DNA of 64,000 bases from Theocolax elegans (Eukaryota > Arthropoda > Insecta > Hymenoptera > Cerocephalidae), in the NCBI GenBank assembly GCA_026168455.1, contig CM047426.1, forward strand, positions 4,457,501-4,521,500, read 5' to 3'. The translations under genes were made by a program, and so were the position numbers. Positions 30,103 through 62,047 of the stretch are shown here, one piece after another. Numbering within the stretch: position 1 is the stretch's first letter; the number at the start of each line of letters is the position of its first letter. The notes under the pieces are model-generated. The model searched no databases. It was not told where the DNA came from and was given only the letters and a program-made list of their open reading frames with translations.

Positions 30103-30270
30103 TGTAACGGGCCTAATTTCAACTCGAAACACAAAAATACATTTATTTTTTGCCTAACCCGAAATAAATGTATTAGGTGGAAGAATCTGGGGTAGCTAAA
30201 GAATTAAACAAATAATTCTTTCTCATCCCAGTTTAACCTCCAAGTTTAATAAATTTGATAAATTAGGATT
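30103..30270 (-). repeat. LTR-like 3' tail of the composite element
   Basis: About 168 bp between the LINE TAA run and the element end. On the minus strand it has AATAAA (in AAAAAATAAATG) and ends GGCCCGTTACA, complementary to the other end, TGTGACGGGCC. It could be the end of the 3' LTR of the gag-bearing element. Without a matching 5' copy this stays tentative. Confidence 0.45.
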
Positions 30271-30880
30271 ATTATTATTAAGTTACTCAGTTGGCACCCT
30301 CCTATTTGACTAGGTTATGCCAGGCACTTAGGTATTCCCTTTGCGCCCTGTTTTCCATTTCCCATCTTTAGCCCCCCGAAGTGTATAGCAATATTGCCAC
30401 ACCTGGGTGAGCCTTCTTATGGGTCCTAGGTTTTTTCAATCGGGCACCGCCCAGAGACCCTGCCAAACAGCAAGTATTCTCTGGACATCCCAACTGGGGA
30501 TATCTCCTGAATCAATTAGAAATTCACCTGTGAGGCGCTATCTTCTTGTCATGATTCTGGGGCATTCACATAAGATGTGTAGAGGTGTTTCGTTTGCCTC
30601 CTTGCACATTCGGCATAATGGATCTGTTTCCAGTCCCATTTTATACCTATGGTATCGCAAATCTCCATGTCCAGTAAGTATGTCCATTAGCTTGCGAGCT
30701 GTCTTTCTGCTAAGTTTCCTAAGCCCTTCTTCCCAGTGTCCGCTTATTGCGTTTCCGAGTGCGGCTTTAGCTTGTCTGCATCCTGCAGTTTTTACCCAAG
30801 CCCTTTGGTGTTCCTTCACCAGCCATTCCTTTATTAATTCTATGAGGTGGCTATGTGACATCTTCACCATCATGCTTGGT
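30271..30880 (-). pseudogene. 3' end of an I/Jockey-type LINE (ORF2 C-terminus, 3' UTR, TAA repeats)
   Basis: Unit 1 alone continues the LINE past the array joint: instead of SWNLLEV it reads SWDVQRILAVWQGLWAVPD and a stop at about 30436, then a 3' UTR and a (TAA)n run at about 30271-30282. The ORF2 C-terminus carries the CxxC-x7-H-x4-C finger (CRMCKEANETPLHILC) common to I, Jockey and R1 clades. TAA-repeat ends favour the I side. In this copy a TGG is TAG after MTRR. RT and endonuclease regions are absent. Confidence 0.75.
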
Positions 30881-32266
30881 TCCGCATGTTTTCGTTGAGA
30901 CAATAGTAATGTCCCCACTGCATGGATTAGAAAATATAACTGTGGATTCTTAGATGCGGAATAGTTCGTCTTGTGAACCAACTTCATATCAGACTGATAC
31001 GGGAAATAAGAGTAAGGGTTCCGTTGTTTCTTCTGTGGACTTAATCATTCTAGTGATCTCATGTGATAATTTTCCAGTCCATATCCAATCAAGTAATATA
31101 GATTCCGATGAGAAATCTAATAATTTAGAAATATATCCTATGGATAGTAGCCCCGCACAATCTTTGAATCTTGAACGTAATGTGCAGATCCTGAGATTGC
31201 TATAAGGATTATCCGGATATCTGTTTAGAAACATGTCTAAAGCTGCTATCATTTTACAATAGTTATCATCTAGATACCATGTATCATACAATCCCTGCAC
31301 AGGAAAGACATTTAGAGGGCAATTTGACAATTTCATTTGGGCAAAGATCCTCCTCTTAATATTTTCGCTATAATCTGTATCATTAATATTAGACAAACGA
31401 TTTGCCGATAACAAGAATATCAATATCCATTTTTCATCGTTCTCATCTGCTTTGGCTTCTGTTAGTCCAGGAATTTCAGAGTTATCAAGATTCACTTCCA
31501 AAAGATTCCAACTGGGGATATCTCCTGAATCAATTAGAAATTCACCTGTGAGGCGCCATCTTCTTGTCATGATTCTGGGGCATTCACATAAGATGTGTAG
31601 AGGTGTTTCGTTTGCCTCCTTGCACATTCGGCATAATGGATCTGTTTCCAGTCCCATTTTATACCTATGGTATCGCAAATCTCCATGTCCAGTAAGTATG
31701 TCCATTAGCTTGCGAGCTGTCTTTCTGCTAAGTTTCCTAAGCCCTTCTTCCCAGTGTCCGCTTATTGCGTTTCCGAGTGCGGCTTTAGCTTGTCTGCATC
31801 CTGCAGTTTTTACCCAAGCCCTTTGGTGTTCCTTCACCAGCCATTCCTTTATTAATTCTATGAGGTGGCTATGTGGCATCTTCACCATCATGCTTGGTTC
31901 CGCATGTTTTCGTTGAGACAATAGTAATGTCCCCACTGCATGGATTAGAAAATATAACTGTGGATTCTTAGATGCGGAATAGTTCGTCTTGTGAACCAAC
32001 TTCATGTCAGACTGATACGGGAAATAAGAGTAAGGGTCCGTTGTTTCTTCTGTGGACTTAATCATTCTAGTGATCTCATGTGATAATTTTCCAGTCCATA
32101 TCCAATCAAGTAATATAGATTCCGATGAGAAATCTAATAATTTAGAGATAGTATCCTATGGATAGAAGGCCCGCACAATCTTTGAATCTTGAACGTAATG
32201 TGCAGATCCTGAGATTGCTATAAGGATTATCCGGATATCTGTTTAGAAACATGTCTAAAGCTGCTA

Positions 32267-34207
32267 TCATTTACAATAGTTATCATCTAGATACCATGTA
32301 TCATACAATCCCTGCACAGGAAAGACATTTAGAGGGCAATTTGACAATTTCATTTGTGCAAAGATCCTCCTCTTAATATTTTCGCTATAATCTGTATCAT
32401 TAATATTAGACAAACGATTTGCCGATAACAAGAATATCAATATCCATTTTTCATCGTTCTCATCTGCTTTGGCTTCTGTTAGTCCAGGAATTTCAGAGTT
32501 ATCAAGATTCACTTCCAAAAGATTCCAACTGGGGATATCTCCTGAATCAATTAGAAATTCACCTGTGAGGCGCCATCTTCTTGTCATGATTCTGGGGCAT
32601 TCACATAAGATGTGTAGAGGTGTTTCGTTTGCCTCCTTGCACATTCGGCATAATGGATCTGTTTCCAGTCCCATTTTATACCTATGGTATCGCAAATCTC
32701 CATGTCCAGTAAGTATGTCCATTAGCTTGCGAGCTGTCTTTCTGCTAAGTTTCCTAAGCCCTTCTTCCCAGTGTCCGCTTATTGCGTTTCCGAGTGCGGC
32801 TTTAGCTTGTCTGCATCCTGCAGTTTTTACCCAAGCCCTTTGGTGTTCCTTCACCAGCCATTCCTTTATTAATTCTATGAGGTGGCTATGTGGCATCTTC
32901 ACCATCATGCTTGGTTCCGCATGTTTTCGTTGAGACAATAGTAATGTCCCCACTGCATGGATTAGAAAATATAACTGTGGATTCTTAGATGCGGAATAGT
33001 TCGTCTTGTGAACCAACTTCATATCAGACTGATACGGGAAATAAGAGTAAGGGTCCGTTGTTTCTTCTGTGGACTTAATCATTCTAGTGATCTCATGTGA
33101 TAATTTTCCAGTCCATATCCAATCAAGTAATATAGATTCCGATGAGAAATCTAATAATTTAGAAATATATCCTATGGATAGTAGCCCCGCACAATCTTTG
33201 AATCTTGAACGTAATGTGCAGATCCTGAGATTGCTATAAGGATTATCCGGATATCTGTTTAGAAACATGTCTAAAGCTGCTATCATTTTACAATAGTTAT
33301 CATCTAGATACCATGTATCATACAATCCCTGCACAGGAAAGACATTTAGAGGGCAATTTGACAATTTCATTTGGGCAAAGATCCTCCTCTTAATATTTTC
33401 GCTATAATCTGTATCATTAATATTAGACAAACGATTTGCCGATAACAAGAATATCAATATCCATTTTTCATCGTTCTCATCTGCTTTGGCTTCTGTTAGT
33501 CCAGGAATTTCAGAGTTATCAAGATTCACTTCCAAAAGATTCCAACTGGGGATATCTCCTGAATCAATTAGAAATTCACCTGTGAGGCGCCATCTTCTTG
33601 TCATGATTCTGGGGCATTCACATAAGATGTGTAGAGGTGTTTCGTTTGCCTCCTTGCACATTCGGCATAATGGATCTGTTTCCAGTCCCATTTTATACCT
33701 ATGGTATCGCAAATCTCCATGTCCAGTAAGTATGTCCATTAGCTTGCGAGCTGTCTTTCTGCTAAGTTTCCTAAGCCCTTCTTCCCAGTGTCCGCTTATT
33801 GCGTTTCCGAGTGCGGCTTTAGCTTGTCTGCATCCTGCAGTTTTTACCCAAGCCCTTTGGTGTTCCTTCACCAGCCATTCCTTTATTAATTCTATGAGGT
33901 GGCTATGTGGCATCTTCACCATCATGCTTGGTTCCGCATGTTTTCGTTGAGACAATAGTAATGTCCCCACTGCATGGATTAGAAAATATAACTGTGGATT
34001 CTTAGATGCGGAATAGTTCGTCTTGTGAACCAACTTCATATCAGACTGATACGGGAAATAAGAGTAAGGGTCCGTTGTTTCTTCTGTGGACTTAATCATT
34101 CTAGTGATCTCATGTGATAATTTTCCAGTCCATATCCAATCAAGTAATATAGATTCCGATGAGAAATCTAATAATTTAGAATATATCCTATGGATAGTAG
34201 CCCGCAC
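32267..34207 (-). pseudogene. Longest array reading frame (646 codons across two units)
   Basis: Runs LINE-free from a partial N segment into LINE, then a complete second N segment, LINE, and a third partial N segment, without a stop. It is possible only because left-hand units have AAA instead of TAA at the N/LINE joint. It holds two copies of the N core RSRFKDCAG and of the LINE finger CRMCKEANETPLHILCEC. A run this long in a decaying viral insertion is notable, but it may simply reflect recent amplification of an open unit. The neighbouring frame 30989-32065 (358 codons) is of the same kind. Confidence 0.6.
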
Positions 34208-37200
34208 AATCTTTGAATCTTGAACGTAATGTGCAGATCCTGAGATTGCTATAAGGATTATCCGGAAATCTGTTTAGAAACATGTCTAAAGCTGCTATCA
34301 TTTTACAATAGTTATCATCTAGATACCATGTATCATACAATCCCTGCACAGGAAAGACATTTAGAGGGCAATTTGACAATTTCATTTGTGCAAAGATCCT
34401 CCTCTTAATATTTTCGCTATAATCTGTATCATTAATATTAGACAAACGATTTGCCGATAACAAGAATATCAATATCCATTTTTCATCGTTCTCATCTGCT
34501 TTGGCTTCTGTTAGTCCAGGAATTTCAGAGTTATCAAGATTCACTTCCAAAAGATTCCAACTGGGGATATCTCCTGAATCAATTAGAAATTGACCTGTGA
34601 GGCGCCATCTTCTTGTCATGATTCTGGAGCATTCACATAAGATGTGTAGAGGTGTTTCGTTTGCCTCCTTGCACATTCGGCATAATGGATCTGTTTCCAG
34701 TCCCATTTTATACCTATGGTATCGCAAATCTCCATGTCCAGTAAGTATGTCCATTAGCTTGCGAGCTGTCTTTCTGCTAAGTTTCCTAAGCCCTTCTTCC
34801 CAGTGTCCGCTTATTGCGTTTCCGAGTGCGGCTTTAGCTTGTCTGCATCCTGCAGTTTTTACCCAAGCCCTTTGGTGTTCCTTCACCAGCCATTCCTTTA
34901 ATAATTCTATGAGGTGGCTATGTGGCATCTTCACCATCATGCTTGGTTCCGCATGTTTTCGTTGAGACAATAGTAATGTCCCCACTGCATGGATTAGAAA
35001 TATAACTGTGGATTCTTAGATGCGGAATAGTTCGTCTTGTGAACCAACTTCATATCAGACTGATACGGGAAATAAGAGTAAGGGTCCGTTGTTTCTTCTG
35101 TGGACTTAATCATTCTAGTGATCTCATGTGATAATTTTCCAGTCCATATCCAATCAAGTAATATAGATTCCGATGAGAAATCTAATAATTTAGAGATATA
35201 TCCTATGGATAGAAGGCCCGCACAATCTTTGAATCTTGAACGTAATGTGCAGATCCTGAGATTGCTATAAGGTTATCCGGAAATCTGTTTAGAAACATGT
35301 CTATAGCTGCTATCATTTTACAATAGTTATCATCTAGATACCATGTATCATACAATCCCTGCACAGGAAAGACATTTAGAGGGCAATTTGACAATTTCAT
35401 TTGTGCAAAGATCCTCCTCTTAATATTTTCGCTATAATCTGTATCATTAATATTAGACAAACGATTTGCCGATAACAAGAATATCAATATCCATTTTTCA
35501 TCGTTCTCATCTGCTTTGGCTTCTGTTAGTCCAGGAATTTCAGAGTTATCAAGATTCACTTCCAAAAGATTCCAACTGGGGATATCTCCTGAATCAATTA
35601 GAAATTCACCTGTGAGGCGCCATCTTCTTGTCATGATTCTGGGGCATTCACATAAGATGTGTAGAGGTGTTTCGTTTGCCTCCTTGCACATTCGGCATAA
35701 TGGATCTGTTTCCAGTCCCATTTTATACCTATGGTATCGCAAATCTCCATGTCCAGTAAGTATGTCCATTAGCTTGCGAGCTGTCTTTCTGCTAAGTTTC
35801 CTAAGCCCTTCTTCCCAGTGTCCGCTTATTGCGTTTCCGAGTGCGGCTTTAGCTTGTCTGCATCCTGCAGTTTTATACCCAAGCCCTTTGGTGTTCCTTC
35901 ACCAGCCATTCCTTTATTAATTCTATGAGGTGGCTATGTGGCATCTTCATCATCATGCTTGGTTCCGCATGTTTTCGTTGAGACAATAGTAATGTCCCCA
36001 CTGCATGGATTAGAAAATATAACTGTGGATTCTTAGATGCGGAATAGTTCGTCTTGTGAACCAACTTCATATCAGACTGATACGGGAAATAAGAGTAAGG
36101 GTCCGTTGTTTCTTCTGTGGACTTAATCATTCTAGTGATTCATGTGCTAATTTTCCAGTCCATATCCAATCTAAGTAATATAGATTCCGATGAGAAATCT
36201 AATAATTTAGAGATATATCCTATGGATAGAAGGCCCGCACAATCTTTGAATCTTGAACGTAATGTGCAGATCCTGAGATTGCTATAAGGGTTATCCGGAA
36301 ATCTGTTTAGAAACATGTCTATAGCTGCTATCATTTTACAATAGTTATCATCTAGATACCATGTATCATACAATCCCTGCACAGGAAAGACATTTAGAGG
36401 GCAATTTGACAATTTCATTTGTGCAAAGATCCTCCTCTTAATATTTTCGCTATAATCTGTATCATTAATATTAGACAAACGATTTGCCGATAACAAGAAT
36501 ATCAATATCCATTTTTCATCGTTCTCATCTGCTTTGGCTTCTGTTAGTCCAGGAATTTCAGAGTTATCAAGATTCACTTCCAAAAGATTCCAACTGGGGA
36601 TATCTCCTGAATCAATTAGAAATTCACCTGTGAGGCGCCATCTTCTTGTCATGATTCTGGGGCATTCACATAAGATGTGTAGAGGTGTTTCGTTTGCCTC
36701 CTTGCACATTCGGCATAATGGATCTGTTTCCAGTCCCATTTTATACCTATGGTATCGCAAATCTCCATGTCCAGTAAGTATGTCCATTAGCTTGCGAGCT
36801 GTCTTTCTGCTAAGTTTCCTAAGCCCTTCTTCCCAGTGTCCGCTTATTGCGTTTCCGAGTGCGGCTTTAGCTTGTCTGCATCCTGCAGTTTATACCCAAG
36901 CCCTTTGGTGTTCCTTCACCAGCCATTCCTTTATTAATTCTATGAGGTGGCTATGTGGCATCTTCATCATCATGCTTGGTTCCGCATGTTTTCGTTGAGA
37001 CAATAGTAATGTCCCCACTGCATGGATTAGAAAATATAACTGTGGATTCTTAGATGCGGAATAGTTCGTCTTGTGAACCAACTTCATATCAGACTGATAC
37101 GGGAAATAAGAGTAAGGGTCCGTTGTTTCTTCTGTGGACTTAATCATTCTAGTGATTTCATGTGCTAATTTTCCATGTCCATATCCAATCTAGTAATATA

Positions 37201-37907
37201 GATTCCGATGAGAAATCTAATAATTTAGAGATATATCCTATGGATAGAAGGCCCGCACAATCTTTGAATCTTGAACGTAATGTGCAGATCCTGAGATTGC
37301 TATAAGGGTTATCCGGAAATCTGTTTAGAAACATGTCTATAGCTGCTATCATTTTACAATAGTTATCATCTAGATACCATGTATCATACAATCCCTGCAC
37401 AGGAAAGACATTTAGAGGGCAATTTGACAATTTCATTTGTGCAAAGATCCTCCTCTTAATATTTTCGCTATAATCTGTATCATTAATATTAGACAAACGA
37501 TTTGCCGATAACAAGAATATCAATATCCATTTTTCATCGTTCTCATCTGCTTTGGCTTCTGTTAGTCCAGGAATTTCAGAGTTATCAAGATTCACTTCCA
37601 AAAGATTCCAACTGGGGATATCTCCTGAATCAATTAGAAATTCACCTGTGAGGCGCCATCTTCTTGTCATGATTCTGGGGCATTCACATAAGATGTGTAG
37701 AGGTGTTTCGTTTGCCTCCTTGCACATTCGGCATAATGGATCTGTTTCCAGTCCCATTTTATACCTATGGTATCGCAAATCTCCATGTCCAGTAAGTATG
37801 TCCATTAGCTTGCGAGCTGTCTTTCTGCTAAGTTTCCTAAGCCCTTCTTCCCAGTGTCCGCTTATTGCGTTTCCGAGTGCGGCTTTAGCTTGTCTGCATC
37901 CTGCAGT

Positions 37908-38822
37908 TTATACCCAAGCCCTTTGGTGTTCCTTCACCAGCCATTCCTTTATTAATTCTATGAGGTGGCTATGTGGCATCTTCATCATCATGCTTGGTTC
38001 CGCATGTTTTCGTTGAGACAATAGTAATGTCCCCACTGCATGGATTAGAAAATATAACTGTGGATTCTTAGATGCGGAATAGTTCGTCTTGTGAACCAAC
38101 TTCATATCAGACTGATACGGGAAATAAGAGTAAGGGTCCGTTGTTTCTTCTGTGGACTTAATCATTCTAGTGATTTCATGTGCTAATTTTCCTGTCCATA
38201 TCCAATCTAGTAATATAGATTCCGATGAGAAATCTAATAATTTAGAGATATATCCTATGGATAGAAGGCCCGCACAATCTTTGAATCTTGAACGTAATGT
38301 GCAGATCCTGAGATTGCTATAAGGGTTATCCGGAAATCTGTTTAGAAACATGTCTATAGCTGCTATCATTTTACAATAGTTATCATCTAGATACCATGTA
38401 TCATACAATCCCTGCACAGGAAAGACATTTAGAGGGCAATTTGACAATTTCATTTGTGCAAAGATCCTCCTCTTAATATTTTCGCTATAATCTGTATCAT
38501 TAATATTAGACAAACGATTTGCCGATAACAAGAATATCAATATCCATTTTTCATCGTTCTCATCTGCTTTGGCTTCTGTTAGTCCAGGAATTTCAGAGTT
38601 ATCAAGATTCACTTCCAAAAGATTCCAACTGGGGATATCTCCTGAATCAATTAGAAATTCACCTGTGAGGCGCCATCTTCTTGTCATGATTCTGGGGCAT
38701 TCACATAAGATGTGTAGAGGTGTTTCGTTTGCCTCCTTGCACATTCGGCATAATGGATCTGTTTCCAGTCCCATTTTATACCTATGGTATCGCAAATCTC
38801 CATGTCCAGTAAGTATGTCCAT
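37908..38822 (-). pseudogene. Typical right-hand unit frame: LINE C-terminus followed by N segment
   Basis: 304 codons from a LINE methionine (MDILTGHGDLRYHRYKMGLE) through the LINE finger, across the SWNLLEV joint, through the N segment to the TAA after RAWV. The same 304-codon frame recurs at 40960-41874, 44009-44923, 45026-45940 and 46043-46957. In the other right-hand units it is broken by single-base indels, for example at about 36140, 37165, 39200 and 42240. Confidence 0.65.
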
Positions 38823-41800
38823 TAGCTTGCGAGCTGTCTTTCTGCTAAGTTTCCTAAGCCCTTCTTCCCAGTGTCCGCTTATTGCGTTTCCGAGTGCGGC
38901 TTAGCTTGTCTGCATCCTGCAGTTTATACCCAAGCCCTTTGGTGTTCCTTCACCAGCCATTCCTTTATTAATTCTATGAGGTGGCTATGTGGCATCTTCA
39001 TCATCATGCTTGGTTCCGCATGTTTTCGTTGAGACAATAGTAATGTCCCCACTGCATGGATTAGAAAATATAACTGTGGATTCTTAGATGCGGAATAGTT
39101 CGTCTTGTGAACCAACTTCATATCAGACTGATACGGGAAATAAGAGTAAGGGTCCGTTGTTTCTTCTGTGGACTTAATCATTCTAGTGATCTCATGTGCT
39201 AATTTTCCATGTCCATATCCAATCTAGTAATATAGATTCCGATGAGAAATCTAATAATTTAGAGATATATCCTATGGATAGAAGGCCCGCACAATCTTTG
39301 AATCTTGAACGTAATGTGCAGATCCTGAGATTGCTATAAGGGTTATCCGGAAATCTGTTTAGAAACATGTCTATAGCTGCTATCATTTTACAATAGTTAT
39401 CATCTAGATACCATGTATCATACAATCCCTGCACAGGAAAGACATTTAGAGGGCAATTTGACAATTTCATTTGTGCAAAGATCCTCCTCTTAATATTTTC
39501 GCTATAATCTGTATCATTAATATTAGACAAACGATTTGCCGATAACAAGAATATCAATATCCATTTTTCATCGTTCTCATCTGCTTTGGCTTCTGTTAGT
39601 CCAGGAATTTCAGAGTTATCAAGATTCACTTCCAAAAGATTCCAACTGGGGATATCTCCTGAATCAATTAGAAATTCACCTGTGAGGCGCCATCTTCTTG
39701 TCATGATTCTGGGGCATTCACATAAGATGTGTAGAGGTGTTTCGTTTGCCTCCTTGCACATTCGGCATAATGGATCTGTTTCCAGTCCCATTTTATACCT
39801 ATGGTATCGCAAATCTCCATGTCCAGTAAGTATGTCCATTAGCTTGCGAGCTGTCTTTCTGCTAAGTTTCCTAAGCCCTTCTTCCCAGTGTCCGCTTATT
39901 GCGTTTCCGAGTGCGGCTTTAGCTTGTCTGCATCCTGCAGTTTATACCCAAGCCCTTTGGTGTTCCTTCACCAGCATTCCTTTATTAATTCTATGAGGTG
40001 GCTATGTGGCATCTTCATCATCATGCTTGGTTCCGCATGTTTTCGTTGAGACAATAGTAATGTCCCCACTGCATGGATTAGAAAATATAACTGTGGATTC
40101 TTAGATGCGGAATAGTTCGTCTTGTGAACCAACTTCATATCAGACTGATACGGGAAATAAGAGTAAGGGTCCGTTGTTTCTTCTGTGGACTTAATCATTC
40201 TAGTGATTTCATGTGCTAATTTTCCTGTCCATATCCAATCTAAGTAATATAGATTCCGATGAGAAATCTAATAATTTAGAGATATATCCTATGGATAGTA
40301 AGGCCCGCACAATCTTTGAATCTTGAACGTAATGTGCAGATCCTGAGATTGCTATAAGGGTTATCCGGAAATCTGTTTAGAAACATGTCTATAGCTGCTA
40401 TCATTTTACAATAGTTATCATCTAGATACCATGTATCATACAATCCCTGCACAGGAAAGACATTTAGAGGGCAATTTGACAATTTCATTTGTGCAAAGAT
40501 CCTCCTCTTAATATTTTCGCTATAATCTGTATCATTAATATTAGACAAACGATTTGCCGATAACAAGAATATCAATATCCATTTTTCATCGTTCTCATCT
40601 GCTTTGGCTTCTGTTAGTCCAGGAATTTCAGAGTTATCAAGATTCACTTCCAAAAGATTCCAACTGGGGATATCTCCTGAATCAATTAGAAATTCACCTG
40701 TGAGGCGCCATCTTCTTGTCATGATTCTGGGGCATTCACATAAGATGTGTAGAGGTGTTTCGTTTGCCTCCTTGCACATTCGGCATAATGGATCTGTTTC
40801 CAGTCCCATTTTATACCTATGGTATCGCAAATCTCCATGTCCAGTAAGTATGTCCATTAGCTTGCGAGCTGTCTTTCTGCTAAGTTTCCTAAGCCCTTCT
40901 TCCCAGTGTCCGCTTATTGCGTTTCCGAGTGCGGCTTTAGCTTGTCTGCATCCTGCAGTTTATACCCAAGCCCTTTGGTGTTCCTTCACCAGCCATTCCT
41001 TTATTAATTCTATGAGGTGGCTATGTGGCATCTTCATCATCATGCTTGGTTCCGCATGTTTTCGTTGAGACAATAGTAATGTCCCCACTGCATGGATTAG
41101 AAAATATAACTGTGGATTCTTAGATGCGGAATAGTTCGTCTTGTGAACCAACTTCATATCAGACTGATACGGGAAATAAGAGTAAGGGTCCGTTGTTTCT
41201 TCTGTGGACTTAATCATTCTAGTGATCTCATGTGCTAATTTTCCTGTCCATATCCAATCTAGTAATATAGATTCCGATGAGAAATCTAATAATTTAGAGA
41301 TATATCCTATGGATAGAAGGCCCGCACAATCTTTGAATCTTGAACGTAATGTGCAGATCCTGAGATTGCTATAAGGGTTATCCGGAAATCTGTTTAGAAA
41401 CATGTCTATAGCTGCTATCATTTTACAATAGTTATCATCTAGATACCATGTATCATACAATCCCTGCACAGGAAAGACATTTAGAGGGCAATTTGACAAT
41501 TTCATTTGTGCAAAGATCCTCCTCTTAATATTTTCGCTATAATCTGTATCATTAATATTAGACAAACGATTTGCCGATAACAAGAATATCAATATCCATT
41601 TTTCATCGTTCTCATCTGCTTTGGCTTCTGTTAGTCCAGGAATTTCAGAGTTATCAAGATTCACTTCCAAAAGATTCCAACTGGGGATATCTCCTGAATC
41701 AATTAGAAATTCACCTGTGAGGCGCCATCTTCTTGTCATGATTCTGGGGCATTCACATAAGATGTGTAGAGGTGTTTCGTTTGCCTCCTTGCACATTCGG

Positions 41801-44800
41801 CATAATGGATCTGTTTCCAGTCCCATTTTATACCTATGGTATCGCAAATCTCCATGTCCAGTAAGTATGTCCATTAGCTTGCGAGCTGTCTTTCTGCTAA
41901 GTTTCCTAAGCCCTTCTTCCCAGTGTCCGCTTATTGCGTTTCCGAGTGCGGCTTTAGCTTGTCTGCATCCTGCAGTTTATACCCAAGCCCTTTGGTGTTC
42001 CTTCACCAGCCATTCCTTTATTAATTCTATGAGGTGGCTATGTGGCATCTTCATCATCATGCTTGGTTCCGCATGTTTTCGTTGAGACAATAGTAATGTC
42101 CCCACTGCATGGATTAGAAAATATAACTGTGGATTCTTAGATGCGGAATAGTTCGTCTTGTGAACCAACTTCATATCAGACTGATACGGGAAATAAGAGT
42201 AAGGGTCCGTTGTTTCTTCTGTGGACTTAATCATTCTAGTGATTCATGTGCTAATTTTCCTGTCCATATCCAATCTAGTAATATAGATTCCGATGAGAAA
42301 TCTAATAATTTAGAGATATATCCTATGGATAGAAGGCCCGCACAATCTTTGAATCTTGAACGTAATGTGCAGATCCTGAGATTGCTATAAGGGTTATCCG
42401 GAAATCTGTTTAGAAACATGTCTATAGCTGCTATCATTTTACAATAGTTATCATCTAGATACCATGTATCATACAATCCCTGCACAGGAAAGACATTTAG
42501 AGGGCAATTTGACAATTTCATTTGTGCAAAGATCCTCCTCTTAATATTTTCGCTATAATCTGTATCATTAATATTAGACAAACGATTTGCCGATAACAAG
42601 AATATCAATATCCATTTTTCATCGTTCTCATCTGCTTTGGCTTCTGTTAGTCCAGGAATTTCAGAGTTATCAAGATTCACTTCCAAAAGATTCCAACTGG
42701 GGATATCTCCTGAATCAATTAGAAATTCACCTGTGAGGCGCCATCTTCTTGTCATGATTCTGGGGCATTCACATAAGATGTGTAGAGGTGTTTCGTTTGC
42801 CTCCTTGCACATTCGGCATAATGGATCTGTTTCCAGTCCCATTTTATACCTATGGTATCGCAAATCTCCATGTCCAGTAAGTATGTCCATTAGCTTGCGA
42901 GCTGTCTTTCTGCTAAGTTTCCTAAGCCCTTCTTCCCAGTGTCCGCTTATTGCGTTTCCGAGTGCGGCTTTAGCTTGTCTGCATCCTGCAGTTTATACCC
43001 AAGCCCTTTGGTGTTCCTTCACCAGCCATTCCTTTATTAATTCTATGAGGTGGCTATGTGGCATCTTCATCATCATGCTTGGTTCCGCATGTTTTCGTTG
43101 AGACAATAGTAATGTCCCCACTGCATGGATTAGAAAATATAACTGTGGATTCTTAGATGCGGAATAGTTCGTCTTGTGAACCAACTTCATATCAGACTGA
43201 TACGGGAAATAAGAGTAAGGGTCCGTTGTTTCTTCTGTGGACTTAATCATTCTAGTGATCTCATGTGATAATTTTCCAGTCCATATCCAATCAAGTAATA
43301 TAGATTCCGATGAGAAATCTAATAATTTAGAGATATATCCTATGGATAGAAGGCCCGCACAATCTTTGAATCTTGAACGTAATGTGCAGATCCTGAGATT
43401 GCTATAAGGGTTATCCGGAAATCTGTTTAGAAACATGTCTATAGCTGCTATCATTTTACAATAGTTATCATCTAGATACCATGTATCATACAATCCCTGC
43501 ACAGGAAAGACATTTAGAGGGCAATTGACAATTTCATTTGTGCAAAGATCCTCCTCTTAATATTTTCGCTATAATCTGTATCATTAATATTAGACAAACG
43601 ATTTGCCGATAACAAGAATATCAATATCCATTTTTCATCGTTCTCATCTGCTTTGGCTTCTGTTAGTCCAGGAATTTCAGAGTTATCAAGATTCACTTCC
43701 AAAAGATTCCAACTGGGGATATCTCCTGAATCAATTAGAAATTCACCTGTGAGGCGCCATCTTCTTGTCATGATTCTGGGGCATTCACATAAGATGTGTA
43801 GAGGTGTTTCGTTTGCCTCCTTGCACATTCGGCATAATGGATCTGTTTCCAGTCCCATTTTATACCTATGGTATCGCAAATCTCCATGTCCAGTAAGTAT
43901 GTCCATTAGCTTGCGAGCTGTCTTTCTGCTAAGTTTCCTAAGCCCTTCTTCCCAGTGTCCGCTTATTGCGTTTCCGAGTGCGGCTTTAGCTTGTCTGCAT
44001 CCTGCAGTTTATACCCAAGCCCTTTGGTGTTCCTTCACCAGCCATTCCTTTATTAATTCTATGAGGTGGCTATGTGGCATCTTCATCATCATGCTTGGTT
44101 CCGCATGTTTTCGTTGAGACAATAGTAATGTCCCCACTGCATGGATTAGAAAATATAACTGTGGATTCTTAGATGCGGAATAGTTCGTCTTGTGAACCAA
44201 CTTCATATCAGACTGATACGGGAAATAAGAGTAAGGGTCCGTTGTTTCTTCTGTGGACTTAATCATTCTAGTGATCTCATGTGATAATTTTCCAGTCCAT
44301 ATCCAATCAAGTAATATAGATTCCGATGAGAAATCTAATAATTTAGAGATATATCCTATGGATAGAAGGCCCGCACAATCTTTGAATCTTGAACGTAATG
44401 TGCAGATCCTGAGATTGCTATAAGGGTTATCCGGAAATCTGTTTAGAAACATGTCTATAGCTGCTATCATTTTACAATAGTTATCATCTAGATACCATGT
44501 ATCATACAATCCCTGCACAGGAAAGACATTTAGAGGGCAATTTGACAATTTCATTTGTGCAAAGATCCTCCTCTTAATATTTTCGCTATAATCTGTATCA
44601 TTAATATTAGACAAACGATTTGCCGATAACAAGAATATCAATATCCATTTTTCATCGTTCTCATCTGCTTTGGCTTCTGTTAGTCCAGGAATTTCAGAGT
44701 TATCAAGATTCACTTCCAAAAGATTCCAACTGGGGATATCTCCTGAATCAATTAGAAATTCACCTGTGAGGCGCCATCTTCTTGTCATGATTCTGGGGCA

Positions 44801-47059
44801 TTCACATAAGATGTGTAGAGGTGTTTCGTTTGCCTCCTTGCACATTCGGCATAATGGATCTGTTTCCAGTCCCATTTTATACCTATGGTATCGCAAATCT
44901 CCATGTCCAGTAAGTATGTCCATTAGCTTGCGAGCTGTCTTTCTGCTAAGTTTCCTAAGCCCTTCTTCCCAGTGTCCGCTTATTGCGTTTCCGAGTGCGG
45001 CTTTAGCTTGTCTGCATCCTGCAGTTTATACCCAAGCCCTTTGGTGTTCCTTCACCAGCCATTCCTTTATTAATTCTATGAGGTGGCTATGTGGCATCTT
45101 CATCATCATGCTTGGTTCCGCATGTTTTCGTTGAGACAATAGTAATGTCCCCACTGCATGGATTAGAAAATATAACTGTGGATTCTTAGATGCGGAATAG
45201 TTCGTCTTGTGAACCAACTTCATATCAGACTGATACGGGAAATAAGAGTAAGGGTCCGTTGTTTCTTCTGTGGACTTAATCATTCTAGTGATCTCATGTG
45301 CTAATTTTCCAGTCCATATCCAATCAAGTAATATAGATTCCGATGAGAAATCTAATAATTTAGAGATATATCCTATGGATAGAAGGCCCGCACAATCTTT
45401 GAATCTTGAACGTAATGTGCAGATCCTGAGATTGCTATAAGGGTTATCCGGAAATCTGTTTAGAAACATGTCTATAGCTGCTATCATTTTACAATAGTTA
45501 TCATCTAGATACCATGTATCATACAATCCCTGCACAGGAAAGACATTTAGAGGGCAATTTGACAATTTCATTTGTGCAAAGATCCTCCTCTTAATATTTT
45601 CGCTATAATCTGTATCATTAATATTAGACAAACGATTTGCCGATAACAAGAATATCAATATCCATTTTTCATCGTTCTCATCTGCTTTGGCTTCTGTTAG
45701 TCCAGGAATTTCAGAGTTATCAAGATTCACTTCCAAAAGATTCCAACTGGGGATATCTCCTGAATCAATTAGAAATTCACCTGTGAGGCGCCATCTTCTT
45801 GTCATGATTCTGGGGCATTCACATAAGATGTGTAGAGGTGTTTCGTTTGCCTCCTTGCACATTCGGCATAATGGATCTGTTTCCAGTCCCATTTTATACC
45901 TATGGTATCGCAAATCTCCATGTCCAGTAAGTATGTCCATTAGCTTGCGAGCTGTCTTTCTGCTAAGTTTCCTAAGCCCTTCTTCCCAGTGTCCGCTTAT
46001 TGCGTTTCCGAGTGCGGCTTTAGCTTGTCTGCATCCTGCAGTTTATACCCAAGCCCTTTGGTGTTCCTTCACCAGCCATTCCTTTATTAATTCTATGAGG
46101 TGGCTATGTGGCATCTTCATCATCATGCTTGGTTCCGCATGTTTTCGTTGAGACAATAGTAATGTCCCCACTGCATGGATTAGAAAATATAACTGTGGAT
46201 TCTTAGATGCGGAATAGTTCGTCTTGTGAACCAACTTCATATCAGACTGATACGGGAAATAAGAGTAAGGGTCCGTTGTTTCTTCTGTGGACTTAATCAT
46301 TCTAGTGATCTCATGTGCTAATTTTCCAGTCCATATCCAATCAAGTAATATAGATTCCGATGAGAAATCTAATAATTTAGAGATATATCCTATGGATAGA
46401 AGGCCCGCACAATCTTTGAATCTTGAACGTAATGTGCAGATCCTGAGATTGCTATAAGGGTTATCCGGAAATCTGTTTAGAAACATGTCTATAGCTGCTA
46501 TCATTTTACAATAGTTATCATCTAGATACCATGTATCATACAATCCCTGCACAGGAAAGACATTTAGAGGGCAATTTGACAATTTCATTTGTGCAAAGAT
46601 CCTCCTCTTAATATTTTCGCTATAATCTGTATCATTAATATTAGACAAACGATTTGCCGATAACAAGAATATCAATATCCATTTTTCATCGTTCTCATCT
46701 GCTTTGGCTTCTGTTAGTCCAGGAATTTCAGAGTTATCAAGATTCACTTCCAAAAGATTCCAACTGGGGATATCTCCTGAATCAATTAGAAATTCACCTG
46801 TGAGGCGCCATCTTCTTGTCATGATTCTGGGGCATTCACATAAGATGTGTAGAGGTGTTTCGTTTGCCTTCTTGCACATTCGGCATAATGGATCTGTTTC
46901 CAGTCCCATTTTATACCTATGGTATCGCAAATCTCCATGTCCAGTAAGTATGTCCATTAGCTTGCGAGCTGTCTTTCTGCTAAGTTTCCTAAGCCCTTCT
47001 TCCCAGTGTCCGCTTATTGCGTTTCCGAGTGCGGCTTTAGCTTGTCTGCATCCTGCAGT

Positions 47060-47428
47060 TTATACCCAAGCCCTTTGGTGTTCCTTCACCAGCCATTCCT
47101 TTATTAATTCTATGAGGTGGCTATGTGGCATCTTCATCATCATGCTTGGTTCCGCATGTTTTCGTTGAGACAATAGTAATGTCCCCACTGCATGGATTAG
47201 AAAATATAACTGTGGATTCTTAGATGCGGAATAGTTCGTCTTGTGAACCAACTTCATATCAGACTGATACGGGAAATAAGAGTAAGGGTCCGTTGTTTCT
47301 TCTGTGGACTTAATCATTCTAGTGATCTCATGTGATAATTTTCCAGTCCATATCCAATCAAGTAATATAGATTCCGATGAGAAATCTAATAATTTAGAAT
47401 ATATCCTATGGATAGTAGACCCGCACAA
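47060..47428 (-). pseudogene. Continuation of the N-like segment and its junction to the LINE (unit 17)
   Basis: After a one-base lesion near 47400 the N text continues (SKLLDFSSESILLDWIWTGK, SYFPYQSDMKLVHKT, LIHAVGTLLLSQRK). It passes into LINE text (HSHLIELIKEWLVKEHQRAW) and stops at a TAA directly after RAWV. The last part of a normal N protein is missing, replaced by LINE sequence. The N-to-LINE joint lies near EPSMMMKM, at about 47130-47150. Confidence 0.75.
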
Positions 47429-49215
47429 TCTTTGAATCTTGAACGTAATGTGCAGATCCTGAGATTGCTATAAGGGTTATCCGGAAATCTGTTTAGAAAC
47501 ATGTCTATAGCTGCTATCATTTTACAATAGTTATCATCTAGATACCATGTATCATACAATCCCTGCACAGGAAAGACATTTAGAGGGCAATTTGACAATT
47601 TCATTTGTGCAAAGATCCTCCTCTTAATATTTTCACTATAATCTGTATCATTAATATTAGACAAACGATTTGCCGATAACAAGAATATCAATATCCATTT
47701 TTCATCGTTCTCATCTGCTTTGGCTTCTGTTAGTCCAGGAATTTCAGAGTTATCAAGATTCACTTCCAAAAGATTCCAAGGGTTGATTTTTCCCATAGTT
47801 CCAATCACTGTTCCATAGCTTTTCCAATCTCCCACTAAATCATCTTGAATTTTAAGGCCCATATAATGTATATAACTTTTAACAAGATCTATAGGTAATT
47901 TATTTTGATCTATGCCACTTCTTACATGCCTAACAAGTTGTCTTCCATCTATCCTGCCGGATTTTACTGTAATTTGTGGTTTCCTGCCTTGATTAGTATC
48001 GAACCAAGAGGACGGGTATTGAGATGGAGTCTCTATAGCTGGTATTTTCAACTCATAAGTCTCTCCGGTCTCTATGTGTTTATAAACCATTTTGAAATAT
48101 GATCTCTTAGGATATATCTGTTCATAACTTTCATATTGATTCAAGCCTTTATCATATTTTCTATTCTTATCAAAATCAAAATCAAAATCAGCTAAAATTT
48201 TTAATAAATTTTCTTTAGTTTTATTTTGTTGCCCTAAAATTGAATGTTTAATAGCCCTTTCGAAATGATCAACTATTTTTTCCACTAATTCTGATTCTGT
48301 TAACTCATAATTTAATTCTTTAGCTAACCCTAAAATATACGTTGCATATTCAACTCTACTACTTTTTCCGCTTATATATTGTCCGAATTCAATATCTCTA
48401 CGGTTTTTTCTTTGTATTGTCGAATCCCAATATCGTTCAATAAATTTATTCTTAAAGTCTTGAAAATTATTAATCTCGTTTTCAATCAAATACCACCAAT
48501 CTTTAGCTGCATATTCTAAAGCTTGTGAAATAGTACACATCATTTCATCGTGAGTTGATGCCGTAGTATTTATGTATTTTTCAATTTCTTTAATAAAACG
48601 AATAGGTCTCTCATTTTTATTCCCTTTAAATTTTGGTAAAGTTAATTTCACTTTATAACTACTATTTTCTGTTTGCATAGTATTACTTCCTAAAGTATAA
48701 TTATTTCTATAATTTTGTTCTAATTTATCCATTTTAGTAAAAATTAAATTATTGTTATGTTCTAAAGATTTATCAATTAAATTTTTTACTTCATTCACTT
48801 TAGCATTTTCAAGATTTAAATCTTCAAAATTATTAAAATCATTACTTAATGCGGTAAATTTTTTCTTAACCTCATCATTTTCTTTTTCAATTAACAATAA
48901 ACGTTCTTTCATTTCTTTATTTTCATTTATTAATTTTTTTATCGTTTCTGTTAATATATCAATTTGTTCATTATAATTTTCTTTCAAATTTGTTAATTGT
49001 TTTGTTCCTTCGGATTTACTTGTTTGATATAAATTACTACAAAATTCAATCTTTTGTTCTATTTCATTATCTTTATCATATAAATCTTTCAATTCTTGAG
49101 TAACAGCTTTTTCCCAATTCATTCGATATTGACTCAACCCCTCAGTTTCATTTCGTTCTTTAGCTTGTTCAATATTTAACATAAATGTTTCCGAATTTCT
49201 CTTATTTAAAGCCAT
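47386..49215 (-). CDS. Gag-rhabdovirus nucleoprotein fusion ORF (609 codons)
   Basis: One uninterrupted frame. Residues 1-365 are Gag-like: a long charged, heptad-rich helix (about 45-175), then a retrotransposon Gag domain (about 188-345; VKLTLPKFKGNKNERPIRFI, AAKDWWYLIENEINNFQDF). From about residue 366 the text switches to a rhabdovirus-type nucleoprotein: FKMVYKHIETGETYELK near its N-terminus, YCKMIAAIDMFLNRFPDNP, then RSRFKDCAGLLSIGY. The N fold coats viral RNA in its home virus. The frame ends LNY-stop because a base is missing near 47400 relative to the array units; the N text resumes at 47428 in another frame. No second knuckle, protease or RT follows. This is a degraded endogenous viral element by origin; whether the fusion is translated is unknown. 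Confidence 0.75.
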   Translation of the reverse strand: MALNKRNSETFMLNIEQAKERNETEGLSQYRMNWEKAVTQELKDLYDKDNEIEQKIEFCSNLYQTSKSEGTKQLTNLKENYNEQIDILTETIKKLINENKEMKERLLLIEKENDEVKKKFTALSNDFNNFEDLNLENAKVNEVKNLIDKSLEHNNNLIFTKMDKLEQNYRNNYTLGSNTMQTENSSYKVKLTLPKFKGNKNERPIRFIKEIEKYINTTASTHDEMMCTISQALEYAAKDWWYLIENEINNFQDFKNKFIERYWDSTIQRKNRRDIEFGQYISGKSSRVEYATYILGLAKELNYELTESELVEKIVDHFERAIKHSILGQQNKTKENLLKILADFDFDFDKNRKYDKGLNQYESYEQIYPKRSYFKMVYKHIETGETYELKIPAIETPSQYPSSWFDTNQGRKPQITVKSGRIDGRQLVRHVRSGIDQNKLPIDLVKSYIHYMGLKIQDDLVGDWKSYGTVIGTMGKINPWNLLEVNLDNSEIPGLTEAKADENDEKWILIFLLSANRLSNINDTDYSENIKRRIFAQMKLSNCPLNVFPVQGLYDTWYLDDNYCKMIAAIDMFLNRFPDNPYSNLRICTLRSRFKDCAGLLSIGYILNY

Positions 49216-49367
49216 TTTTATTAACTAATTTAAACAGTTCTTAATATTTTAAATCTAATTTTCTTAATCTTCAAATTTATAAATTAATTTAATTTTAAAA
49301 TTTTAAATTTCTTTATTAATTTATTATTTATTAAATCTTTTATCAAAATTATTTTATTTAAATTTCG

Positions 49368-49386
49368 GATCCTGGCAGGATCGCCA
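49368..49386 (-). other. Primer-binding-site-like motif upstream of the gag-N fusion
   Basis: The minus strand reads TGGCGATCCTGCCAGGATC about 150 nt ahead of the gag start, with the TGG expected to pair with a tRNA CCA end. Only 69 bp separate it from the element end, too short for a normal LTR, so the LTR upstream is probably truncated. Confidence 0.5.
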
Positions 49387-49459
49387 AATTAATTTAAATA
49401 ATTAAAAAAAAACTACCGAAAGTTGAATTTGAATTATATAGTCAGGCCCGTCACAATAT

Positions 49460-52400
49460 ATAAATATATATATATTACGTACGCGAATGTAAGCACGCAT
49501 ACAGATATTTGTGAGAATTGAATATTAAAAAAAAGTATACGTATGCGTGGATAGATTTGCGTATTTGTGTATGTATAAGGAATATGTTTTTTGTTATGTT
49601 CATACATCACGTGTAACAAATATTGTAATATTCTTTTTTTTCCCCTCTCCTATGTATTTTCTTTTTTCTCTCCTCGAAATATATTTATTATTCGAAAATA
49701 AAAACAAATATAACTATTTAACATTAGAATCGCCAGTTGTATACAATTTATTCTTTTAATGTAAATGTGAAGGTGTATACTATCAATTATACGTTTAATC
49801 CGAGATAATGATTTATTTGTACTTTAAAAAAAAACCAAGACACGAGGTGTAAGCGAATACAAGAAAATAAATAAATAATAACATTATAAAATGATAATAC
49901 GCGGGTTTTCGTGATTAAGCGAGGACTCGCGCACTTTTGAAAATGGAAAATAACAAAAAAATTAATAGTAAAGTAAAAAAAAAAAGTAAGTTTTAAAGGA
50001 TTTAGCGCACTACTTTTAGGCATGTCGTATGCTGATGATGTTTTTTATGAAAAACGCTTAGGTAACCTATACTTACGATTTCACAATGCATATATACGAA
50101 TCAGCAATCTGAAAATTTTTTACAAATTTTTTTACCAGTATTAAACGAGAAAATGAAAATAGAAATAATGAAATATATGAAATTTTAGATATTTTTCTCT
50201 TTATTGTAATAAAAGATAAACGATAAAAAAAATAATTCTGTTCTTATTTATTTATTAAGAGATGTTAAGTATATTTCAGTAATAAATACCAAAAATTGCA
50301 TACTTAAAGTGCGTTGGTGACTTATTTTATTTTGAACACCCGATCTGTAAATAGGATAAGTTTTTTTTATACGTCAATGTGTTGTTTTGGAGGTTTGATT
50401 TTTTTTTTTGGTATTGTAAAAAAGGAAAAGGGGTTAATTTTGTGAAAAACTAAAAATATATTGACTGCAAAGAAAAATTAATTTATTTTCTATAAAGTTT
50501 TTTTTTTAAATAAGATTTGTTTTGTTTACGAGATACATCCTGTATTCTTTGTCATTTTCTATTTTTATTATTTTCTAATTAATTTACAAAGATATAGCTG
50601 TGTGTAATTTAAAATATCAAATTACGGTATCAGACTCTTAATAAAAATAAAATTCTGTATTATAAATTTAATACGATTTGTCTTGTGTCGAGCAAGTTAC
50701 ATTTTATTCGAAAATTTTTGATATATCGATCGATTCTTTCCAAATTATTATAAAAAAGATGTAACAAGAAATTTTTATTTTTTTAAAAAATGTAATAAAG
50801 AAAGTAACGTAAAAAAATAAACAAGATTCCAAAGAATAGAATGAAAACTTTCTTTATTAATGAATCTTACTTGTCACTCGTTAAAAATCAAAATTTCCCT
50901 CGCGCTTGGCAATTTTCTCTCCATAATTTTCATTTGATTTCAGCTATATAATCGTATATGAAAAATACTATTCAAGTGTTTAATTCATTAATTTAGTTTA
51001 TGACATTTTTCGTTGGTATTTTACAAGATAATTTACATTACTATAAATAAAAAAAATATTGAATACAAAGAAAGTTGTCTGAGTAAATAAAATTTAGTGG
51101 AATTAAATACATATTTATTTAAATTAAAAAATTTTATTTAAAACAAATGACGCGTTATTAAATCTACAAAATATTTATTTATTTTAAATGAATCTTTCTT
51201 CAAGTAGTCAAAGAAATATTTTTTTGAATATAGTACATTTTTTTTGTTTGTAAAGATCAATTTTTAATTTGGCTGCGTATTTTTCTCTATTTTTCTTTTA
51301 AGTTTTGCAAGTTTCAAATTTTTACCTTTATTACTTTACCTACGTAAAATGTGACATAAATTGGTCCTAAATAGAAAAAAGCAATTTATAAATATCTTAA
51401 ATAGTGACTTTTTAACTATTAAATTTGACAGAATAATATTCATTACTATTTCAAAAATTCTACCAAAAATTAAAAAATATATTGAACATATAACCTACTA
51501 TATACAAAATATAATTACAAAATGTTGGTACATTTGGGATGGTTCTCAAAAAATAATAAATATTTGTAAAAATTAATAAACTATGAAAAACAATGAACAT
51601 ATATATTTTTAAAATTAATCCCCCTTAATTACGTTCAATTTAAACGTCGATAAGGCAAGAAGATTAAAATCGTTCGTTTTTAATGGAGATTAAAAATCAT
51701 TTACAGAAATCAAATCTTTTTTAATTAGATCCATTTTTCCTGTTTTATTTTTTATTATTTCGTATTAATTTTCGAAAAAGGTCGAATTACTTTATTCATA
51801 TAAGCTTCATAAAATAAATTCGTTTTCAAAAAAAGGTCAATTATTCGTCTTGTACAATGGTTCAATCCAATGGTTTAAGAATTAATAATATTTTAATAAA
51901 TGTAATATCACTGTAGCCCATTCTTTTTTTCATTTTAATATATGAACATTATTTTCGTAAAACGTTTAAAACAAAAATCAATTTTTTTAAATTTCCTTAC
52001 TTGTACACAATGGCAAAGAAAAAGTTTGACGGTGTAACTAATATCGTTTAGTTGAAACTGCAGATTGAAGGATTATATTGGTAATAATTGTAATAAATTA
52101 AGGTACTTGGTAAAAGAGACGACCAAATGTTGGATAGGCATTAAAATTAATAAATTAAATTATTAAATAAAAAATTAAATTAAAAAATAAAAATATTTGA
52201 CAATATTATAATAAATAAACTAATAAAAATTAAGATAAATATTGTATTTATATAACCATTAAAACTTCTTACGATTATATTATATATTTTTATACTGAAA
52301 AACTTGTTTAACAGCTAATTGAAGAGGACTGATCAAATATATCTTTCGAAGAGTATACGTGGTAAATTATTTTCTTTAAATAAATGTTTTATTATATTTA

Positions 52401-52794
52401 TAATCGAAGATTTACGTTTGTATATTATAATTGTATCATTATACTGTGATACCTTTATTTATTTATCTATAAAACAATTTATTACTCACATGTCAATATT
52501 GCTAAAATTTTATTAGGAAGATAGATATAGCATATAATAGAAATTGAGATTAGTAAAAAATATTTCATTTCTTCGCAATTAATTAAGGACATTTATTGCC
52601 CAATTTTGGCCAATTCTGCTAGGGAATAAACCGACATTGTCTTTTCATTTTTTTTATCGAGTAGTAAATACTTACTGATAATTATCATATATATGAATCG
52701 CGTTCAATCAATTGGTAAAAAAGATTTATAAAAGAGAATACTACACTACTTGAAATACAAAAATTGAATTGAATTAAAATAAATAATTAAAATT
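49460..52794. other. AT-rich intergenic DNA without recognisable features
   Basis: Very AT-rich with many homopolymer runs; short open frames (for example 51361-51576 and 52319-52516) have no protein-like composition. I see no gene, RNA or transposon structure here. Confidence 0.5.
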
Positions 52795-52912
52795 AAAATC
52801 AATACTAAAAATTTTAATTTAAAATCACATGAAAATTAATACTAAAAATTTTAATTAAAAACACACGAAAATTAATACTAAAAATTTTAATTTAAAAGCA
52901 CACGGAAATTAA
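52795..52912. repeat. Minisatellite, about three copies of a ~37-bp unit
   Basis: The unit AATACTAAAAATTTTAATTT followed by an A-rich stretch and CACACG/CACATG occurs three times in a row with few changes. Confidence 0.75.
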
Positions 52913-53469
52913 AAATTATAAAATTAAACAATTCATAGGTTTCAACTAAGTTTTCTTTTTAAATTCACTATGTATTTCTATATGTAAACTTTTTTATTTA
53001 AGAATGCATATTGAATTTCCGAAAAATAGATAAATAAAATTTAGTTCTTATAGCGTGTGCGAAAAAATATATGTTTATATATAGGTATTTTTATTATTTG
53101 ATGACTCGAGAAATGTTGAGTATTCTGTTTAATATGTGATGCAACGATATTTTCATGAAGTAAGAGGTATCGCCAAGTGAATTATTATCTATCTTTTTAA
53201 TTGCGTAATTAAAATTTTGTAGCTGTGTATTAACATTTTAAACAAAACATGAATTAATTATTTATTCACTAAGGGAGTAAAATAGACGTTTATTCCCGGA
53301 GATGAAAGTTGCTGATTGACCTATAAGGGAAAAAACTCACCTTGTACTTCCGAAGTGTATGTTGTATAACATTTTTTTGCCTAAATTATTCTGGAATTGA
53401 ATATATTTTTTTCACCCAAATTACTTGAAAAGTTTTTCACTCTAATCATCTAAAAAGCCTTATACTTTA

Positions 53470-53887
53470 TTGACCTCTATACGAAGGGAGTAAAATTGCA
53501 TTTTATTCCTCCGATGATTTTATTCTCCGTAGACTCATTTTATTCCCCCTCATCGTAGACTTACTTTTTTGTTTCGAACGCTTATTTCAGACGTTTCCTA
53601 CAAATATAAAATTAAATTTATCGTAGTACATTAAATTTATGTACTAAAAAATTTTACAATATTAAACGAAATTTAGAAATTTAAAAATAAATTTTTGTCG
53701 CACAAAGTGGCCTATTAAACGATCAGGGTGTAAAAGACGATTATTCCCTTATAGACGAATTAAAAAAGTCTCTATACGAAGGGAGTAAAATTGCATTTTA
53801 TTCCTTCGATGATTTTATTCTCCGTAGCCCCATTTTATTCATCGAAGATACGTTTTATTCATTGTTGACTTACTTTTTTGTTTCGAA
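53470..53887. repeat. Direct repeat of a ~115-bp segment
   Basis: The stretch from CGAAGGGAGTAAAATTGC to TTTTTTGTTTCGAACRCTTA occurs at about 53475-53583 and again at about 53775-53887. It holds a near-palindromic GGGAGTAAAATTGCATTTTATTCC-like core. A third partial relative lies at about 53273-53300. Probably an old transposon or satellite remnant. Confidence 0.6.
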
Positions 53888-54125
53888 CACTTAGCTTAGA
53901 CTTGTATGTTAACTTCTATGTCGATCTGAAGGAGGCCAGTGGTGGGAAAAAAGATGACAATTTTCGAAAAATTCTATTTTTACTTCCATGATTAAAATGG
54001 GTGTATAAAATTAGTCTACGGGGAGTAGGAATGAAATATACAAATTTTACTTCCTTGGTTTGAAGTGAATAATTCTTGGATAATTGCGTACATTAATTGT
54101 ATAAAGTTATGTAATGTATATGTTA

Positions 54126-54330
54126 CTCTGGATTAATAAAGTAAATAAAGTTAATAATTAAATAAATAAATAAAATAATGTAATAAATAAATAAATAATT
54201 TTAATAAATAAATAAATAAATAAAATAAATAAATTAAAAATATAATATAAAAAAAATAAAGTAAATAATATAAAAATAAAATTAAAAATGAAAATAAAGA
54301 AGTAAATATAATAAAATAATTTAAATAAAT
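54126..54330. repeat. AAAT/AATA-type simple repeat
   Basis: Nearly pure A/T tract made of AATA, TAAA and AAAT units. Confidence 0.8.
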
Positions 54331-57899: not shown

Positions 57900-57916
57900 A
57901 TATATATATATATATA

Positions 57917-57966
<50 letters not shown>

Positions 57967-57982
57967 CTATATATATATATAT
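57900..57982. repeat. (TA)n microsatellite
   Basis: Almost uninterrupted TA dinucleotides with a few TAA steps; able to fold back on itself. Confidence 0.9.
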
Positions 57983-58240
57983 AATAGTAAAATTTTTTTA
58001 TTTGTTAAAACATGTTAGAAGTTGTGGGTTGGGACAAGTAGTTTCCTTTCATTTTTCTGAATCCGTAAAAAATGATTTTTCGATCTATAGATTTAATTTT
58101 GAAGTGATTTTCGATTATTTATATAAAACACCTTCCACGAAGGTGTCAACATTCGCAAGTATGGTTTCCAATCGCACTTCAAATATGTTATCTGACAAAA
58201 AAATCTTTAATTCTTACTCCCATCTTATTTCTACTTACAT

Positions 58241-61168: not shown

Positions 61169-61204
<36 letters not shown>

Positions 61205-62007: not shown

Positions 62008-62047
<40 letters not shown>

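Follow-up and report, generated by a model that had tools for sequence, protein, structure and literature searches.

Introduction

The entry of cytoplasmic RNA virus mRNAs into insect germlines is poorly documented, and the closest described systems, given here from excerpts of the papers named, each resemble one part of the locus reported below. In Aedes, endogenous rhabdovirus-like nucleoprotein (N) sequences (NIRVS) are found in LTR and above all Ty3/gypsy surroundings, and some were apparently duplicated after integration (PMC5497376). LCMV-IAP recombination in the mouse (Geuking 2009, via PMC3205384) joined a viral RNA sequence to an LTR retrotransposon, with subsequent integration, while endogenous bornavirus N genes (EBLN) arose through LINE-mediated insertion and display target-site duplications (TSDs) and poly(A) (PMC3205384). 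At insect endogenous viral elements (EVEs), according to Katzourakis and Gifford, TSDs and poly(A) are not apparent (PMC2987831). Anakin is a multi-copy BEL/Pao element with full domains that carries a chuvirus glycoprotein (PMC7642597), and a fragmented IHHNV EVE of Penaeus monodon consists of parvovirus DNA in 661-bp units of inverted pieces (PMC8982415). In these excerpts, the proximity of rhabdovirus N fossils to Ty3/gypsy elements, the joining of viral RNA to an LTR element and the multiplication of a DNA-virus EVE are each documented separately.

We analysed 64,000 nucleotides of Theocolax elegans DNA (this whole stretch being termed the window) together with the genome of 658 Mb in 1,277 contigs. 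The window carries a chimera of Ty3/gypsy gag, rhabdovirus N and LINE sequence, and the best explanation of the whole, to which we assign a probability of roughly two in three, is that a rhabdovirus N gene became endogenous and afterwards underwent rearrangement and amplification. The locus offers a base-level joint between gag and an apparent viral mRNA 5' end, as well as two haplotypes by which the later events may be ordered.

Results

Layout of the chimeric element

All parts of the chimera lie on the minus strand and are enclosed by the outer ends of one LTR element, namely the LTR start TGTGAC at 49455 and the LTR end TTACA at 30103; both ends sit in an AT tract, where a short target duplication is indistinguishable from the repeat. 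The element opens with a 5' LTR remnant of ~70 bp (49386..49455), comprising the LTR start and a 48-bp inner piece and lacking the rest of the 1,275-1,278-bp LTR, and continues with a primer-binding-site-like motif (49367..49386) that also follows the 5' LTR in the related copies L020 and L023. In these two copies, an LTR stretch near the start of the 3' LTR appears tRNA-like by eye. The gag region (48124..49215) is followed by the gag/N joint (48091..48123) and by the first N copy (47164..48090), which runs from the start codon to approximately residue 312 of 420 with its frame broken near 47400. Next to it lies the first LINE segment, an ORF2 piece of ~400 bp (46764..47163) that recurs in every unit of a tandem array of 17 N and 17 LINE segments (30487..47779). 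The last LINE copy (30268..30893) reaches the LINE 3' end and is abutted by the final 170 bp of the 3' LTR (30103..30272). Thus, relative to a Ty3/gypsy element with two full LTRs, gag and pol, the window copy retains gag and LTR remnants of ~70 and 170 bp without pol.

The joining of gag, N and a LINE 3' end between LTR-element ends, as proposed in a sequence-only reading of this DNA, is real; that reading identified the parts correctly and overlooked the tandem array, which spans most of the 19 kb. The gag-N, N-LINE and LINE-N joints all keep one frame (in frames of 612 and 668 aa), an outcome with a chance of ~1/27. The N match and the DNA identities of the parts are far beyond chance.

On the plus strand, exons encoding ankyrin repeats (5,826-6,332) and an SH3 domain (28,260-28,577) are reminiscent of an ASAP-type Arf-GAP gene. 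The element, which has the opposite orientation, lies ~1.5 kb past this SH3 exon, and read-through RNA from the SH3-coding gene would therefore be antisense to N. Elsewhere in the window, the minus strand at 11700-16238 holds another Ty3/gypsy-type element, with protease, RT, RNase H, integrase and zinc-knuckle in separate frames, and an exact 212-bp duplication (two copies) was observed at 523-946.

Origin of the N, gag and LINE parts

The N-like part is an endogenous viral element derived from a Rhabdoviridae N gene. In a profile search, the 612-aa gag-N frame matched Rhabdo_ncap at 2.5e-44 and one array unit did so at 5.5e-49; rhabdovirus N chains of solved structure matched at 4.8e-38. The nearest named virus is Hubei dimarhabdovirus virus 2, whose N is 53% identical over 98% of the 313-aa N frame of contig C1037 (a second copy of the locus, described below). 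Rhabdo_ncap is present in all nine protein matches to that frame, among them a hypothetical protein from the wasp Eretmocerus hayati. The viral origin claimed for this part would have been in doubt if a host protein had matched better than any viral N; the matches obtained, to Rhabdo_ncap and to viral N, bear the claim out. The setting of N is that of a host chromosome, with a contig of chromosome size, host-like exons nearby and a flank common to C1037. Of viral genes, the search covered N alone.

The gag region is represented by 11 other copies in the same genome, 97-99% identical over gag (40 of 159 candidates scored), and a full copy of the family has protease, RT, RNase H and integrase domains; the LTRs measure 1,275-1,278 bp in four copies. 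Within the gag-N frame, Arc_capsid_dom was matched at 2.6e-4, which is below the curated cut-off of that domain, and the protein relatives of gag are two unnamed proteins of 37-38% identity. The LINE end, including 3' UTR and TAA repeats, is 98-99% identical to two LINE copies (L027 and L028), and, of 39 rows scored from outside the window's own units, 37 matched the 407-bp LINE part of the unit at 99% and two (C1037 and C1041) matched via N. The zf-RVT domain at the end of ORF2 falls below its cut-off in one unit and above it in a two-unit frame, and one genomic LINE copy has RT and RNase H domains with a weak zf-RVT; the LINE is young.

The gag/N joint and the mRNA 5' end

Five aligned gag copies equal the window up to ...AAAGTTAT (48124), save two substitutions in L020. 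After this position the window reads one G and then AACAGATATATCC..., which begins with AACAG, 32 nt ahead of the N start codon. AACAG is the usual 5' end of rhabdovirus mRNAs, and as the joint lies one base before this motif, copying of the N mRNA very likely proceeded as far as its 5' end. As a control, AACAG was sought within 36 nt upstream of window ATGs outside the element and was present at 19 of 652 and 14 of 699. By eye, AACAG was seen 21 nt before the ATG of an N locus on contig C1; it was missing from the 36 nt that precede the apparent start of an N locus on contig C3, and this latter result counts against the reading of an mRNA 5' end.

The extension of gag to 48097, as reported by blastn for five copies, was rejected, those copies showing gaps and substitutions relative to the window after 48124; since the copies diverge there and the window 30-mer is unique, the joint was set at 48124/48123. 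A homology-guided switch at this point is not demonstrated: the resemblance that the 5' end of N bears to gag was equalled or exceeded by 39 of the 3,024 windows taken from one element and by 89 of 2,000 shuffles. At up to three mismatches the joint 30-mer occurs at two places in the genome, the window and C1037, and gag was found joined to N in two of 44 rows, again the window and C1037 (40 of 159 candidates scored). No second locus with the gag/N joint or with the joint between broken LTR and primer-binding site was found in the genome beyond these two. The virus-derived part does lie between the ends of one LTR element, as had been proposed; that it is a mobile cargo was not supported by the searches for the joints. 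As the joint is known only at the window locus (and C1037), nothing shows mobility of the chimera, and its classification as a mobile Anakin-like element was set aside.

A second haplotype and the proposed sequence of events

Contig C1037 is collinear with window positions 47,154-63,420, with identities of 98.3%, 94.4% and 98.6% over three stretches and one insertion on each side. It contains the flank, the broken 5' LTR, gag and the gag/N joint of the window; its gag frame is broken and its N frame is open to the contig end. This end overlaps contig C1041 over 568 bp at 99.8%, and the far end of C1041 equals contig C976 at 100% over 918 bp, inside a repeat. Both C1037 and C1041 are short unplaced contigs (~17 kb) and, with one stretch only 94.4% identical, could represent a duplicated locus. 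Two further differences between the copies were noted. C1037 holds ~5.5 kb (5676-11217; L017/L018) that is absent from the window, while window positions 55147-60751 are absent from C1037 and constitute a polymorphic fold-back-like element, the arms of which (55154-56793 and 59115-60747) are inverted and mostly 84-100% complementary.

In C1041, N runs to residue 329 of 420, ~17 residues beyond the N/LINE joint of the window (at ~312), where it meets the 96-bp minisatellite of a dispersed repeat. This repeat (L019/L029; C1041 14350-16454) has many genomic copies. No LINE, array or LTR end of the gag family was found in C1041, save a weak 139-bp match of 76% to L020, and no array was seen in C1037/C1041. 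As N of this haplotype passes the window N/LINE joint without a LINE, N was longer before the LINE arrived, and the LINE is most likely secondary at the locus. This is evidence against capture of the N mRNA by a LINE, the route that the sequence-only reading had favoured; the viral part did not end at the LINE joint ancestrally, and the LINE as capturing agent is no longer the first choice. A comparison of the two haplotypes over the first 230 codons of N revealed 10 differing codons (6 synonymous and 4 nonsynonymous), which are too few for constraint on N to be claimed.

Structure and growth of the tandem array

The 17 N segments alternate with the 17 LINE segments head-to-tail at a near-constant spacing of 1,015-1,018 bp (~1,017), in the manner of a tandem satellite-like repeat; compared with one reference unit, full units show 98.8-100% identity. 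The N terminus and the junction with gag are confined to the first N, and the LINE 3' end with its TAA repeats is confined to the last LINE copy. The joint between units, ...ATATCCCCAGTTGGAATCTTTTGG..., is identical in all 16 later units; its LINE parent is CCCCAGTTGGGATG and its N parent CAACCCTTGGAATC, and TTGG is present in both, which fits a duplication founded on microhomology. Within the LINE part, units 1-11 read TAA and units 13-17 read AAA, unit 12 having an extra base. Such variants, being common to runs of neighbouring units, fit unequal exchange and argue against a pure assembly artefact. The array thus probably began with a duplication at the TTGG microhomology and grew by unequal exchange. 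Additionally, single-base indels occur in single units, several of them in homopolymers, and may be sequence errors.

An open frame is present in six of the 17 N segments, and coding function is therefore not claimed. Because most N segments are broken, the array today is probably a non-coding, satellite-like viral fossil, and its action, if any, would most likely proceed through RNA such as putative piRNA precursors.

Other N loci and arrays

A Rhabdo_ncap search of the genome returned 41 rows, comprising 26 from the window array, two from C1037/C1041, 11 from C1:106.106-106.114 Mb and two from C3:70.45 Mb; 14 control genomes gave none. The C1 locus (G000:C1:106105500-106114000, L061), situated on another chromosome, is 67-69% identical to the window N at the DNA level and contains the N 5' end, its AACAG start having no gag alongside in the 8.5 kb compared. 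Like the window locus it is a tandem array, composed in this 8.5-kb stretch (the whole array may be longer) of ~1,014-bp units with an extra piece and of three 535-bp units, the latter covering N residues ~201-379. Of the three N loci detected, two thus have a tandem organisation. The extra piece, present in four full copies at C1, has no Pfam match and recurs at 90% at six places ~3.2 kb apart on another contig (C2:95271771-95288045), in an array without N; array formation is therefore not confined to N.

Discussion

The four steps proposed for the origin of the locus follow the order suggested by the joints and by the second haplotype. In the first, reverse transcription of an N mRNA would have reached the 5' end of that mRNA, and the cDNA would have become fused in frame with a Ty3/gypsy gag; the joint itself is directly visible, and as to the route, we lean slightly towards a template switch made while the element was itself being reverse transcribed, rather than towards an N cDNA inserted into a gag already in place. 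In the second, confined to the window haplotype, a 5'-truncated LINE 3' end would have come to separate N from the final 170 bp of the LTR, the simplest means being a target-primed LINE insertion in the LTR accompanied by a deletion. A duplication between the TTGG of the LINE and that of N may then have generated the first two units, as the observed unit joint suggests, and unequal exchange, to which the block-shared variants point, may finally have expanded these to 17 units with partial homogenisation.

The original 3' joint of N, which would record the entry route, has been lost in both haplotypes. Also counting against the scheme are the single reading frame kept across all three joints and the possibility that C1037/C1041 stem from a duplicated locus. 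A reasonable competitor, though one we consider less probable than the scheme as a whole, is that LINE machinery placed an N cDNA into a resident gag in the style of a processed pseudogene, the later steps being alike. Copying to the mRNA 5' end and one extra G fit this equally well, and the N locus on C1, which starts at AACAG with no gag adjoining in the 8.5 kb compared, is in line with it; against it, no duplicated gag target or poly(A) is visible, the N 3' end being lost in both haplotypes. It is unlikely that synthesis by a LINE reverse transcriptase began in the LTR, ran through the LINE 3' end and jumped to an N mRNA, copying it to its 5' end, and that the cDNA then joined gag with loss of the middle of the element. 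Such an event would explain every part of the window haplotype at once, placing the LINE tail at its target site and the 5' end of the mRNA beside gag; the other haplotype, which has the same gag/N joint, ~17 more N residues and no LINE, argues against it.

With two N arrays available, accident and selection can be tested against each other as causes of the tandem amplification of viral fossils. The array may have been selected as a source of antiviral small RNAs, with the second N array being convergent; in its broader form, this proposal holds that the lineage repeatedly makes ~1-kb N arrays as amplified sources of antisense RNA, or putative piRNAs, against rhabdoviruses. If true, N fossils on different chromosomes would constitute convergent antiviral memory arrays. 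The tandem arrangement of two of three N loci and the plus-strand SH3 exon ~1.5 kb away, read-through from which would run antisense to N, are consistent with selection; we nevertheless regard selection of the array as rather improbable, and the broader proposal as equally doubtful, as the array without N on C2 likewise contains the extra piece known from C1 and as C1037/C1041 are without an array. Least probable of all is that the 17-fold repeat is wholly or partly an artefact of assembly. The one-base indels in single units, several in homopolymers, would agree with such an artefact, though it is at odds with substitutions common to runs of neighbouring units, with the attachment of gag to the first N only and of the 3' end to the last LINE only, and with the existence of a separate array at C1. 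An endogenous N gene, rearranged and amplified after its arrival, remains the preferred reading.

In titles and abstract openings of the open-licence literature, no tandem array of rhabdovirus N was found, nor did that literature yield the combination of an mRNA 5' end/gag joint, a later LINE, a 17-fold array, a second N array and two haplotypes. As the comparisons below draw on excerpts, they extend to what those excerpts describe. The EBLN share with the locus the copying of a viral N mRNA into the genome; in the window, conversely, the LINE probably came later, and N displays neither a TSD nor poly(A) (PMC3205384). Anakin likewise places a gene of a negative-strand RNA virus within an LTR retrotransposon, the window chimera differing in being one locus with broken LTRs and without pol, and in carrying N rather than a glycoprotein (PMC7642597). 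In LCMV-IAP recombination, too, a viral RNA sequence and an LTR retrotransposon are joined; there the virus is an arenavirus, the host a mouse and no fossil copy is reported, whereas at the window the 3' joint is lost and the route is inferred (PMC3205384). The IHHNV EVE resembles the array as a viral fossil multiplied to repeat units at one locus, although it stems from a DNA virus instead of an RNA-virus gene and no retrotransposon chimera is described for it (PMC8982415). For the Aedes NIRVS, neither a tandem N-LINE unit nor a base-level joint of gag to an mRNA 5' end is described, while the likeness to the window lies in an endogenous N situated amid Ty3/gypsy sequence (PMC5497376).
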